64,000 bases of DNA from Candidatus Zhuqueibacterota bacterium (lineage in GTDB: Bacteria; Zhuqueibacterota; Zhuqueibacteria; Oceanimicrobiales; Oceanimicrobiaceae): the NCBI GenBank assembly GCA_029262055.1, contig JAJDAD010000026.1:1-64000 (forward strand), given 5' to 3'. Below the pieces are notes generated by a model that made no database searches, was not told the origin of the DNA, and saw nothing but the letters and a program-made list of their open reading frames with translations. The first letter of the stretch is position 1. Each line of letters begins with the position of its first letter. Shown here in pieces: positions 6,171 through 10,348 of the stretch. Both the position numbers and the translations under genes were made by a program.

Positions 6171-8252
6171 ATGCCATCCCCGCTTACCAGGAATATTGCC
6201 ACTTTTGCGTTGGTCTTTTCTCTGTTCTTGCTGTCGGGCGAGTCGGCCTTTCCACAGGCCGGCAAACATCTGCTCGATCCTAAGATTCGGGACGTTTTGC
6301 ACGAAGAACTCAGTGGCGAGCTAGCAAAGGAACATGTCATTCAAATCACCCGGCATCATCGCATTCAAGGGTCAAGAGGCTATCGCGCCGCAGCGAATTA
6401 TGTACTGGATCAACTTCGCAGCTACGGTTTTTCGGAGCAGGACGCCTACATCGAGTCCTTTAAATCCGATGGTAAGGTTCACTACCAAACGTGGCAGTCG
6501 CCATCCGGCTGGGATATAGAGTCAGGCGAACTGCGGATGATTGAGCCGCATGCGGAGCGCATCGTAGGTTACCCGGAAATAGCCATGAGCGTCATGACCT
6601 ATTCAAACTCCGGCGACGTAACCGCGGAGCTGGTCTGGGTTGGCCGCGGCACGGACGACTCCGATTATGCCGGCAAAGATGTAAAGGACAAGTTTGTTCT
6701 GGCTACCGGTTACGGCGGTTCCGTGCACCGGCTGGCGGTACTCAAATATGGTGCGAAAGCAGTTGTTTGCTATCTCGACGACGACCGTGCCAGGGAGTAC
6801 CCGGACATGCTGCAATACACGGGCATGTGGCCCAAGAGCCATGAACTCGACCGGGTCACCTTTGGTTTCAATCTTACCAATCGTCAGGGCGAAAAGCTGA
6901 AGAACCTGCTCGGAACCGGTACAAAGGTGGTGCTGCGAGGACAAGTACAGGGCATCGGGCTGGAGTCATATTTTATGGACGTGGTGGTCGCTCATGTCCG
7001 CGGGACAGAGTTCCCCGACGAGGAGATTGTCTTTACGTCTCACCTGGATCATCCGAAGGAATCTGCAAATGACAATGCCAGCGGCTCCGCGGCCATTTTG
7101 GACATGGCACGCAGCATGCGGAGCTTAATTCGTGAAAATAAAATGGTGCCGCCGAAGCGCTCTCTGCGCTTCTTGTGGGTTCCCGAGTTCTTTGGAACGA
7201 TGGCCTACATTGACGCTCATCCGGAGCTGAAAGGCGCTATCCTCGGCGGCAAGTTTCTGGCCAACCTTAACCTGGATATGGTGGGCGAAAACACCGAACT
7301 TTTGCACTCAAAACTTATCCTCACGCGCACGCCCGACTCGATGCCGTCAGTCCTGAACGATGTGATTGCAAACATGGCTGACATGGTGGACCAGATGGAT
7401 GTGCGTACACCGCGCGGCAGCCTTTCTGCTTTCAATTACCGGGTTACGCCATACAGTGGCGGCAGCGATCACATGATGTTTAATGAGCGCAAAGTGCCCG
7501 GCATCATGTTTTCGCACAGTCCGGATTACACGCACCACACATCAGAGGATACGCCGGACAAAGTCGATCCGGTCGAACTGGAGCGTTGTGAAATGATTGC
7601 TTCCGGCGCTGCGCTCTACCTCGCAAATCTGACTCCGGCACAGGCGCGGAATTTGACCTATCTCGCCTACAGCCAGGCAGCCGGCCGACTGGCGGAAGCC
7701 ATGGGCCTTGCAAGCCAAATGTCTGAATTTGGCGCGCAAAGCACGGTCGAGCAGATGTGGTTTGAAAGTCAGAACATATTGAATCACGCCCTGCAAAGAG
7801 AGTTGGCGACGGTTGCTTCCGTGCTCAACTTCAACTCAGAAAAATCTACTCAGAGTCTAATTCGGACCCTGCAGGAGGAGTTGCGGAATCATCATCGGTT
7901 CTATTCTCAGCAGCTAACGACAAAAGCACATGCCGCCGGAGCCCCGGCCGAAACCTCACCAAAGGCAGAAACGGAAGACCAGCGGGTGCCGGTTCGTCTG
8001 ACGCGCGGGCCATTGGATTTCGGGTTGCCGCAAGGCAAGCTCCCGGAAGCGGAACGAGTCTGGTATACGGGCAAGCAATTCAATCTCAACGGTGATCTGC
8101 GCTTTGAACTGATCAACTTTGTTGACGGGTCAAGATCTGTTTCGGACATAAGAAATGCGCTGAGTGCAGAGTTTTTCCCGGTTTCGCTCAATGTGGTTGC
8201 ACGCTACATCAGCGACTTGGTGAAGGTGGGGGCTTTGCAGTGGCGGGAGTAA
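6171..8252 (+). CDS. M28 family peptidase (PA-domain type) with C-terminal winged-helix/PqqD-like segment
   Basis: Signal peptide; SHLDHPKESANDNASGSAAILDMAR, NLDMVGEN, YSGGSDHMMF; RBS AGGAGG upstream. Confidence 0.85.
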   Translation: MPSPLTRNIATFALVFSLFLLSGESAFPQAGKHLLDPKIRDVLHEELSGELAKEHVIQITRHHRIQGSRGYRAAANYVLDQLRSYGFSEQDAYIESFKSDGKVHYQTWQSPSGWDIESGELRMIEPHAERIVGYPEIAMSVMTYSNSGDVTAELVWVGRGTDDSDYAGKDVKDKFVLATGYGGSVHRLAVLKYGAKAVVCYLDDDRAREYPDMLQYTGMWPKSHELDRVTFGFNLTNRQGEKLKNLLGTGTKVVLRGQVQGIGLESYFMDVVVAHVRGTEFPDEEIVFTSHLDHPKESANDNASGSAAILDMARSMRSLIRENKMVPPKRSLRFLWVPEFFGTMAYIDAHPELKGAILGGKFLANLNLDMVGENTELLHSKLILTRTPDSMPSVLNDVIANMADMVDQMDVRTPRGSLSAFNYRVTPYSGGSDHMMFNERKVPGIMFSHSPDYTHHTSEDTPDKVDPVELERCEMIASGAALYLANLTPAQARNLTYLAYSQAAGRLAEAMGLASQMSEFGAQSTVEQMWFESQNILNHALQRELATVASVLNFNSEKSTQSLIRTLQEELRNHHRFYSQQLTTKAHAAGAPAETSPKAETEDQRVPVRLTRGPLDFGLPQGKLPEAERVWYTGKQFNLNGDLRFELINFVDGSRSVSDIRNALSAEFFPVSLNVVARYISDLVKVGALQWRE

Positions 8253-8360
8253 GTCAATGCCGGCTGTTTATGGAACATGGTCTCACGCAGTTCAAGTGCA
8301 AACCGGGATTTGAACAGGGAAGAGGATTTGTAAAGTTGTATGAAAAGTGAAGTCTGGACT

Positions 8361-8508
8361 GAGCGGCATGCGGGTGGACCCACCCCTGCTTCAGGCTCTA
8401 AGCGAGCCTGAAGCTGTCCCCTCCGAGGATGGGAAAAATCTCCTCCCGGGAGGAGAAAGCCAACGAGCGAAGCTCGGTTGGTAGAGGTGGGTTCTGCGCT
8501 GTGCTGAC
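8361..8508. repeat. Structured direct repeat, copy 1 (upstream of DUF559 ORF)
   Basis: gagcggcatgcgggtggaccc...ctgcgctgtgctgac, near-identical to 8910-9056; contains hairpins CTTCAGGCTC/GAGCCTGAAG, TCCTCCCGGGAGGA and CCAACGAGC/GCTCGGTTGG. Confidence 0.95.
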
Positions 8509-8552
8509 AGTCGCAATGCACAAAAAAACGCTAAAACAGAAAACCCATTCCC

Positions 8553-8960
8553 ATGAGGCACAAGATCATCCCCTACCAGCCGCATCTGAAAGAAGTAGCG
8601 AGGAAACTCCGGAAGAACATGACTCTCTCCGAAGCCTTGCTTTGGAATAAACTCAAGCGCAAACAAATGCTCGGCTACGACTTCGACCGGCAGCGGCCCA
8701 TCAACCGTTACGTGGTGGACTTCTACTGCAAGACGTTATTCTTGGCCATCGAAATCGACGGGGAAAGCCACAACCTGGACGGCCGTGACCTTAAGGATGC
8801 GAGACGCCAACGGCGCTTGGAAAGCTTGGGAGTCCGGTTCTTGCGATTTCAGAGCCGGGAGGTTGTTGAGGATATGGACAGTGTTTTGCTGAGAATTGAG
8901 GCGTGGCTTGAGCGGCATGCGGGTGGACCCACCGCTGCTTCAGGCTCTATGCGAGCCTGA
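8553..8960 (+). CDS. DUF559 domain-containing protein (Vsr-like/PD-(D/E)XK endonuclease-like)
   Basis: MTLSEALLWNKLKRKQMLGYDFDRQRPINRYVVDFYCKTLFLAIEIDGESHNLDGRDLKDARRQRRLESLGVRFLRFQSREV is a typical DUF559 sequence. The C-terminal tail is encoded inside repeat copy 2. Confidence 0.92.
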   Translation: MRHKIIPYQPHLKEVARKLRKNMTLSEALLWNKLKRKQMLGYDFDRQRPINRYVVDFYCKTLFLAIEIDGESHNLDGRDLKDARRQRRLESLGVRFLRFQSREVVEDMDSVLLRIEAWLERHAGGPTAASGSMRA

Positions 8961-9056
8961 AGCTGTCCCCTCCGAGGATGGGAAAAATCTCCGCCTGGGA
9001 GGAGAAAGCCAGCGAGCGAAGCTCGGTTGGCAGAGGTGGTTCTGCGCTGTCCTGAC
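8910..9056. repeat. Structured direct repeat, copy 2 (overlaps 3' end of DUF559 ORF)
   Basis: Near-identical to 8361-8508 with a few substitutions and a 1-nt indel near the 3' arm. Confidence 0.95.
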
Positions 9057-9106
9057 GTTTGCATTCTACTGAGCAATCCAGAATGGCCGATCTAAACTCA
9101 CCTCCC

Positions 9107-10348
9107 CTAAATCCCGTATTTCTCCGCAAAAGCCACCAGTGCTTCTTCAAAGATCGCCATGGGTGGACGAACCAGTCCTGCGCCAACCTGCCCGATGCCG
9201 GCTCTCTTATGTGCGATGCCGGTGTTCACGCGAGGCGTAGTGCCTAGCTCAACCACCTTGCGCAAATCGATTCCCGTCGGCGTGCCGCGAAAATCAAAAG
9301 CCGGAATGGTAAACGCCTTGTGCTCTGTGAAAGAAATCTCGTACATTTCCATTGAAGCGTCGATCGCATCCTGAGGTTTTCCGCTGACAAAAGTAACGAT
9401 AGCCGGCGCTGCCGCCATAGCGAAGCCACCGATGCCGGCGGTTTCGGTAATCGTACTATCCCCAATGTCAGGGTTGGCGTCTTCATCGCCATAGCCAGGG
9501 AAATAGAGCCCTTTCGGAATTTGCGCGGGCGCGGTAAACCACTGCTCCCCGAGACCGCTTACCCGGATACCAAAATCGGTGCCGTTGCGGGCCATGGTTG
9601 TTACGATCGTACTGCCTTCGACCCCGTGCGCTGCATCGGCCATGGCTTTGCAGGCTGCCATGACAGGGTTGAGAACCGCGAGTGCGTTATCGCCGAGCGC
9701 CGCCAATATTTCTGACGTAGTTTGACTGCTTTCGGATACCTTAGCAATATGTGGCGCCAGCGCCTTGAGAAACAAAATCGAGCCGGCCTTGTTGCGATTG
9801 TGGCCTTCGTCGCCCATGTGCAGGGCTTCGGAAAGCAGGGCTTTGATGTCGATTCCGCCCGAGCTTTCGATGGCCTGTTTTAACACCGGCGCCATGACCT
9901 CTTCCATCCAGCGCAGCCGGGTCTGTACCTCTTCATCGTAAGCGCCGTAACGCAGGACTTTGCCGTATCCTTCGTTCAAGTTGGAATAGGCGCGGTTGCC
10001 GTGCACTTCGTTTTCGATAACATAAACCGACATGGACGGAGAGGTCACACCGGCCATGGGCCCCACGGCCTGGTGGTGATGACAGGGTTCGAGTTCGATC
10101 TCTCCGGATTCCACCAGCGCCTTCGCTTCGTCCTCGTTACTGACTTTGCCCTCAAAAATCAAAGCGCCGGTGATTGCGCCGCGCATGGGGCCGGAGGACC
10201 GTTCCCAAGTAATCGGAGGCCCTGCGTGCAACAGCAGATTCTCCCGCATCCCCGGAATAACGTCGAGCGCTTTGCCGATGCCGACCAGAATGGCACGGGC
10301 TTCGATCATTTTTTCAGTTGCTGCTGTGTTGGCTTTGTCGATGTTCAT
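9107..10348 (-). CDS. DUF1116 / YlbE-AllG family protein
   Basis: GPMRGAITGALIFEG, CHHHQAVGPMAGVTSPSMSVYVIEN, HMGDEGHNRNKAG, TMARNGTDFGIRVSG; adjacent to an FdrA homologue. Confidence 0.85.
   Translation of the reverse strand: MNIDKANTAATEKMIEARAILVGIGKALDVIPGMRENLLLHAGPPITWERSSGPMRGAITGALIFEGKVSNEDEAKALVESGEIELEPCHHHQAVGPMAGVTSPSMSVYVIENEVHGNRAYSNLNEGYGKVLRYGAYDEEVQTRLRWMEEVMAPVLKQAIESSGGIDIKALLSEALHMGDEGHNRNKAGSILFLKALAPHIAKVSESSQTTSEILAALGDNALAVLNPVMAACKAMADAAHGVEGSTIVTTMARNGTDFGIRVSGLGEQWFTAPAQIPKGLYFPGYGDEDANPDIGDSTITETAGIGGFAMAAAPAIVTFVSGKPQDAIDASMEMYEISFTEHKAFTIPAFDFRGTPTGIDLRKVVELGTTPRVNTGIAHKRAGIGQVGAGLVRPPMAIFEEALVAFAEKYGI

Follow-up and report, generated by a model that had tools for sequence, protein, structure and literature searches.

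The window analysed here is the whole stretch of 64,000 nucleotides from a Candidatus Zhuqueibacterota bacterium (contig JAJDAD010000026.1, positions 1 to 64,000). It possesses a DUF559 nuclease gene placed between two copies of a structured element, the first of which overlaps the decayed remnant of a second DUF559 gene. The features of the locus are as follows.

8322-8411, plus strand: remnant of the 3' part of another DUF559 gene, now decayed; it retains codons for about residues 106-135, has one internal stop and continues into element copy 1.
8378-8492, no strand assigned: element copy 1, of BoxC type and complete with two halves as judged from sequence and DNA fold, 95% identical to copy 2. 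Left half: arm ACCCACCCC 8378-8386, linker hairpin 8388-8414, stem-loop 8415-8434. Right half: stem-loop 8439-8456, linker hairpin 8457-8482, arm AGAGGTGGGT 8483-8492.
8553-8960, plus strand: DUF559 / PD-(D/E)XK (Vsr-like) endonuclease ORF of 135 amino acids, matching PF04480.
8927-9039, no strand assigned: element copy 2, with the architecture of copy 1, by repeat search, alignment and DNA fold. Left half: arm ACCCACC 8927-8933, linker hairpin 8937-8963, stem-loop 8964-8983. Right half: stem-loop 8988-9005, linker hairpin 9009-9030, arm AGAGGTGG 9032-9039.
8439-8983, plus strand: putative minimal unit, composed of the right half of element 1, the DUF559 gene and the left half of element 2, proposed by analogy with the orientation in other genomes and from homology boundaries.

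The near-identical direct repeats around the DUF559 ORF, pointed out in a first-pass annotation of this DNA, were recovered by repeat search and gapped alignment. They cover 8341-8490 and 8890-9039 with 91% identity and continue through 8490-8515 and 9038-9063; the gapped alignment widened the homology to 8322-8515 and 8868-9063. Identity between the copies differs by segment, being 25/36 (69%) in the coding tail, 18/20 in 8358-8377, 108/114 (95%) in the element proper and 19/23 in the stretch after it. In the DUF559 register, copy 1 is translated as EDL*SCMKSEVWTERHAGGPTPASGSKRA*, and this remnant showed 66% identity with residues 106-135 of the intact protein. Since the match lies in the same register, copy 1 was rightly read in that annotation as what remains of the 3' end of a previous DUF559 gene with its element. 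The decayed 3' end is the sole other DUF559 match in the host genome, where the gene is single-copy, while the element has dispersed relatives there, counted as about 20 partial ones in one scan and about 30 in another. The window would have held two tandem modules of gene plus element, of which the first gene decayed and the elements stayed more alike than the coding tails. No orthologous empty site could be set for the window locus, because its two neighbour genes are not adjacent in relatives. Comparable to the tandem remnant of the window, arrays of direct repeats or another, partial DUF559 copy were also observed close to some DUF559 genes elsewhere (L016, L024 and L039).

The ORF belongs to DUF559, as it matched PF04480 with an E-value of 3.6e-30 and 104.5 bits (cut-off 20.6), and it also matched the MTES_1575 REase family (E 1.8e-9). 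Its closest solved relative is a Neisseria endonuclease-like protein (PDB 3hrl, E 3e-14), and the match to the mobile-intron endonuclease 3r3p is weak (E 0.66). Among 18 homologues, D56, E67-x-D69 and H73 are invariant. The AlphaFold2 model is of high confidence (mean pLDDT 86.5) except for the tail at residues 125-135, which is below 50 and predicted to be disordered; it is element copy 2 that encodes these last 11 residues. A reading frame running into the element was found in 28 of 99 DUF559 loci and results in tails such as PTPSPSQEGN. PADLOC gave weak restriction- or homing-type matches only. In a 2005 study (PMC1189080) the E. coli member, YcjD, was assigned to the PD-(D/E)XK superfamily close to Vsr, which it finds at 1e-5.

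Each copy of the window element is a palindrome of two halves. In the left half, the arm ACCCACC(CC) is joined through a 27-nt linker hairpin (GCTTCAGGCTC...GAGCCTGAAGC) to the stem TCCCCTCC-GA-GGATGGGA, which has one mismatch; the right half is composed of the stem TCTCCTCCC/GGGAGGAGA, a linker hairpin and the arm AGAGGTGGGT. The element forms a much better fold than shuffled sequences, with a z of about -5 (DNA parameters, mononucleotide shuffles). Arm and stem follow a simple rule, in which the arm is the mirror of the C-rich strand of the stem with T replaced by A. In copy 1 the right arm, ACCCACCTCT, is the mirror of the stem strand TCTCCTCCC apart from a single T-to-A change, and the left arm CCACCCC likewise mirrors CCCCTCC with T-to-A. 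Of 220 half-elements, 50% obey the rule without any deviation, compared with 7.7% when a plain mirror without the swap is required, and the mean match between arm and stem in these halves was 0.872 compared with 0.797 (sd 0.005) when arms were shuffled among elements. Mirroring with a T-to-A replacement is the rule for a purine-motif intrastrand triplex, built of G.GC and T.AT triads. Seven arm types were distinguished, including ACCCACCCC, ACATCCCCC, ACAACCCCC and ACACCCC, and all obey the rule by inspection. On the basis of this rule the elements were identified as BoxC, PIT or 'TM' repeats.

The window elements possess the hairpin and the stem-mirroring arm of this class but not its short loops (1-6 nt in the published search), the second loop being formed by hairpins of about 26-27 nt. 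As most other DUF559 loci have a short linker (TAA, TGA or TGG) at this position, the window copy represents an extended variant of the BoxC/PIT class. A first pattern scan of 60 relatives, with the linker gap capped at 30 nt, overlooked the majority of elements of the window class, whose linkers measure at least 31 nt. An Rfam scan of 8200-9200 revealed no family, only a sub-threshold SAM-II match (E 1.3); a group I or II intron and an IS200/605 or IscB-HEARO arrangement were rejected, as no Rfam RNA family matched.

Intrastrand triplex repeats of the BoxC, PIT and 'TM_ECO' kind were described by Holder et al. 2015 (PMC4666352) and in earlier work cited there from E. coli, cyanobacteria and more than 260 genomes, and triplex formation in vitro is reported for TM_ECO only. 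According to that paper no mobility gene was found around TM_ECO sites, and nuclease and DUF559 are unmentioned. The first-pass description of the unit as undescribed has therefore to be narrowed: the repeat class is known, and what is absent from the literature searched is its link to DUF559, the titles and abstracts of the DUF559 papers making no connection with repeats or mobility.

To analyze the surroundings of DUF559 genes, 80 loci with flanks of up to 10 kb were fetched by protein pattern alone from 85,462 species genomes, and 76 of them were tested; other ORFs or genes in the same 20-kb loci served as controls (728 in the flank test and 736 in the hairpin test). The hosts belong to more than 10 phyla, among them Bacteroidota, Cyanobacteriota, Planctomycetota, Acidobacteriota, Nitrospirota, Ignavibacteriota, Spirochaetota, Bacillota, Chloroflexota, Balneolota and Fidelibacterota. 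Upstream and downstream flanks were similar to each other in 44 of 76 DUF559 loci and in 19 of 728 control ORFs (Fisher p 1e-36). A C-rich hairpin was situated within 300 nt on at least one side in 67/76 loci (88%) and 53/736 controls (7%), and on both sides in 35/76 and 3/736, respectively; hairpin density was 1.85 per kb near the DUF559 gene and 0.06 per kb away from it. No hairpin was detected within 300 nt in 9 of the 76 loci, some of which have type F arms missed by the detector. Flanks of DUF559 genes were also compared in 23 of 60 relatives, where the same architecture with different sequences lies beside most of the genes, and named plasmid-borne DUF559 genes of Sinorhizobium, Azospirillum, Sphingobium, Picosynechococcus and Deinococcus are flanked by such elements as well. 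The association of DUF559 genes with BoxC-type elements is thus hardly open to doubt.

Upstream of the gene, the nearest half-element has its arm on the gene side in 58 of 69 cases; downstream, this is so in 47 of 58, and in paired cases the count is 32 to 3. As the arms face the gene on both sides, the core order is hairpin-arm-gene-arm-hairpin with the half-elements inverted; Deinococcus is an exception with reversed half-elements. Between non-syntenic units, homology covers no more than 83 nt on the upstream side of the gene and 61 nt on the downstream side, and since it ends there the unit is taken as half-element, gene and half-element. The first-pass view of the unit as a gene with a 3' element only did not hold, because inverted elements with arms toward the gene occur on both sides across phyla. 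Many units are flanked by no more than a half-element on either side; others, as in the window, often lie between two complete elements. No target-site duplication could be defined for the DUF559 unit.

To understand the relationship between element type and nuclease, a tree of DUF559 proteins was built without the element-encoded tail (112 columns, many forks being weak). The element type changes 17 times on this tree, compared with 43.6 times with shuffled labels. When labels were shuffled within host phylum, 38.2 changes were expected and none of 1000 shuffles was as low as 17; within Bacteroidota alone, 6 changes were observed against 20.7. A single DUF559 clade (96 SH-aLRT), all of the ACAACCCCC type, spans Acidobacteriota, Nitrospirota and Fidelibacterota. 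In these sequence comparisons, then, the seven arm types follow the DUF559 tree and not the host phylum. That gene and structured element travel together, as proposed in the first-pass annotation, is supported by the flank similarity, the hairpin enrichment and this tracking of the tree.

The exact 19-mer ACCCACCCCTARCCCCTCC was present in 3 of the 5 cyanobacterial genomes that encode a close type-A DUF559, compared with 4 of the remaining 111 (116 genomes, p 0.001). Among the former, one Okeania genome of 10 Mb (G066, L057) contains 436 exact copies of this BoxC-type arm-stem sequence of 19 nt, which makes it a good system for catching recent movement, and in another (G083) one copy is situated about 90 nt from the DUF559 gene. 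Ten exact arms also occur in a cyanobacterium in which nothing matched DUF559 at E<=1e-15. The first-pass annotation had counted repeats beside unrelated genes lacking DUF559 against a mobile unit; such repeats were found, but they are expected of gene-less derivatives.

Site states were analyzed with the joined flanks of one Mucilaginibacter unit, which were searched in 61 genomes of the genus for a single site between a carboxylase CDS and a GNAT CDS. This site is empty, with no element, in four cases (L204, L205, L220 and L225), holds a gene-less pair of half-elements in two (L223 and L229) and is filled, with the gene present, in two (L202 and L209). The motif AGCGATA, situated just 5' of the gene in filled copies, is retained in the gene-less ones. 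The site thus shows presence and absence of the whole unit, with the gene-less element as a shortened unit. The gene-less copies may be deletions in situ, since AGCGATA stands beside an arm at only one other site in 20 Mucilaginibacter genomes. Near-identical units at two separate sites of one genome were searched for and none was found, the best same-genome pair being 94% identical and 1.7 kb apart in Brocadia pituitae. Between paaD and paaZ of Deinococcus the DUF559 gene is present or absent, and the intergenic DNA aligns too poorly to set the ends. Other repeats were also seen in Mucilaginibacter: a dispersed polypurine repeat GAGAGTCAAGAATCAAGAGCCAAGAAACAAGAC (L063, about 9880-9940) and GGTAAAAGGCGAAAGG-type inverted repeats, some of them at the same intergenic site.

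In E. coli, ycjD is a DUF559 gene between sapF and fabI with a BoxC element directly downstream. The ycjD region with its flanks was found in 3338 of 5426 E. coli genomes, about 38% being without ycjD, while BoxC matches occur in 5403 of the 5426; the elements thus outlive the gene. Genomes without ycjD have efflux genes at the sapF-fabI site, so that ycjD and eefRABCD form a presence/absence polymorphism with no clean empty site. A 2026 paper describes this alternation of ycjD and eefRABCD, the repeats not being noted (PMC12817139). Among the loci collected here, strains carry either ycjD with a BoxC element or the efflux genes (L199 990-1710; L196, L197 and L198). Recombination between BoxC elements could take part in the eef loss reported for the eefRABCD site (PMC12817139).

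Taken together, the locus is probably a REPtron-like mobile unit, in which a PD-(D/E)XK nuclease gene lies between BoxC-type ends on which the nuclease would act; the mobility of the unit is deduced from the comparison of sequences. The family of small mobile units to which it would belong is very widespread, each unit having a DUF559 gene between two inverted BoxC-type half-elements made of a C-rich hairpin and an arm; by folding back, the arm could supply the third strand of an intrastrand triplex. The nuclease would recognise and cut its own element. By analogy with RAYT, it may act on the folded single strand and nick the arm-hairpin; alternatively, it may cut the element at a target, followed by recombinational repair, which would be homing into repeats. 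The gene-less elements are best read as derivatives of the DUF559 unit, and the scattered paired ones would be non-autonomous forms that relate to it as REPs and REPINs do to RAYT transposases. The balance is even on a wider proposal, that in bacteria at large the BoxC/PIT triplex repeats are mobilised by DUF559 proteins dedicated to this task; this would be a kind of transposition or homing in which a lone Vsr-like PD-(D/E)XK nuclease processes triplex-forming DNA ends without an HUH, DDE, serine or tyrosine transposase.

A different account, in which the repeats spread by other means (replication slippage, template switching or a DDE transposase) and DUF559 is a selfish homing gene, appears rather unlikely. 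Here the nuclease would cut the repeats and be copied into them by repair, with the flanking repeats as homology arms. The Vsr-like character of DUF559 (PMC1189080) and the weak 3r3p match fit with it, as do the units lying between two complete elements, including that of the window, and the occurrence of elements without the gene; the greater likeness of the window elements than of the coding tails is what repeated conversion would give. By itself, however, homing leaves unexplained why gene-less elements share their type with a nuclease clade across phyla, and many units have half-elements only. The gene-less Mucilaginibacter copy that retains the motif from 5' of the gene also suggests loss from a unit and not an untouched target.

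It is very improbable that BoxC-type elements are common intergenic folds (terminators or attenuators) neighbouring DUF559 genes by chance in repeat-rich DNA: they are indeed intergenic and abundant in some genomes (PMC4666352), and terminators do occur downstream of genes, but control ORFs of the same 20-kb loci had hairpins far less often, the elements are as frequent upstream as downstream and oriented toward the gene, their type tracks the protein tree within phylum, and earlier work recounted in PMC4666352 found no promoter or terminator activity for these repeats.

The dispersed element relatives in the host genome raise a last alternative, as they sit inside MITEs of about 265 bp with the 14-bp TIR AACATTTCTCACTT and target duplications of about 8-9 bp. 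This MITE family has two interiors, one of about 210 bp without and one of about 265 bp with a paired BoxC-type element (L150-L157, e.g. G000:C3:66357-66618); in the host genome the element is therefore also carried by another mobile family. A DDE transposase could accordingly have moved the repeats as MITEs, with DUF559 as a domesticated repair or anti-repeat nuclease clearing structured repeats. This is most unlikely, as the TIR is absent from both window elements, other MITEs with the same TIR lack the element, and no such TIRs surround DUF559 units in the other loci read. The window repeats themselves were rejected as a MITE for their lack of TIRs. The unit was also not assigned to DDE insertion sequences or MITEs, since it has inverted ends but no transposase and no target duplication identified.

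What is new here is the DUF559 nuclease as the first candidate partner enzyme of BoxC repeats, the repeat class itself being already known. BoxC/PIT repeats have long been known from E. coli, cyanobacteria and hundreds of genomes without an origin or a partner gene, and the link to a nuclease makes their spread open to simple assays in which ycjD is paired with its BoxC element. A function is also suggested for this DUF family, which most phyla possess; the odd ...PTPSPSQEGN tails seen on many predicted proteins are explained as translated repeat, and an enzyme of the PD-(D/E)XK type joins the few candidates for mobilising repeats.

Compared with known systems, the elements resemble BoxC/PIT repeats in the G/C-rich stem and the mirror-symmetric third-strand arm. 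Those repeats have TTA (type A) or CCG (type B) as the second loop, often occur as inverted A+B pairs in intergenic regions and in E. coli include a copy downstream of ycjD; the window elements differ in that long hairpins take the place of the TTA linker and that the stems are in part imperfect. Like MITEs with TIRs, there are gene-less inverted-repeat elements related to a gene-bearing unit, whereas the DUF559 unit is without a DDE transposase, its ends are a hairpin and an arm, and no target duplication was found. With YcjD and other DUF559 PD-(D/E)XK nucleases, Vsr and Vsr-like homing endonucleases, the protein shares the family, the predicted fold and the D, E-x-D and H residues; unlike the Vsr-like homing endonucleases, DUF559 units are not situated within introns or inteins. 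CGTC- and GTAG-tagged REPs (PMC3733652) were rejected, the tags being absent from the ends here. The likeness to REP/REPIN-RAYT 'REPtrons' (PMC8266576, PMC3733652) lies in one small gene between inverted palindromic repeats that also occur as dispersed gene-less copies, an arrangement found here too, and in a repeat type that co-evolves with the enzyme. RAYT and REP pairs co-evolve, and RAYT acts on folded single strands (PMC8266576). The DUF559 unit differs from REPtrons in that its enzyme is a PD-(D/E)XK nuclease and not an HUH tyrosine transposase, and that its ends, instead of carrying a GTAG motif, are triplex-type folds.
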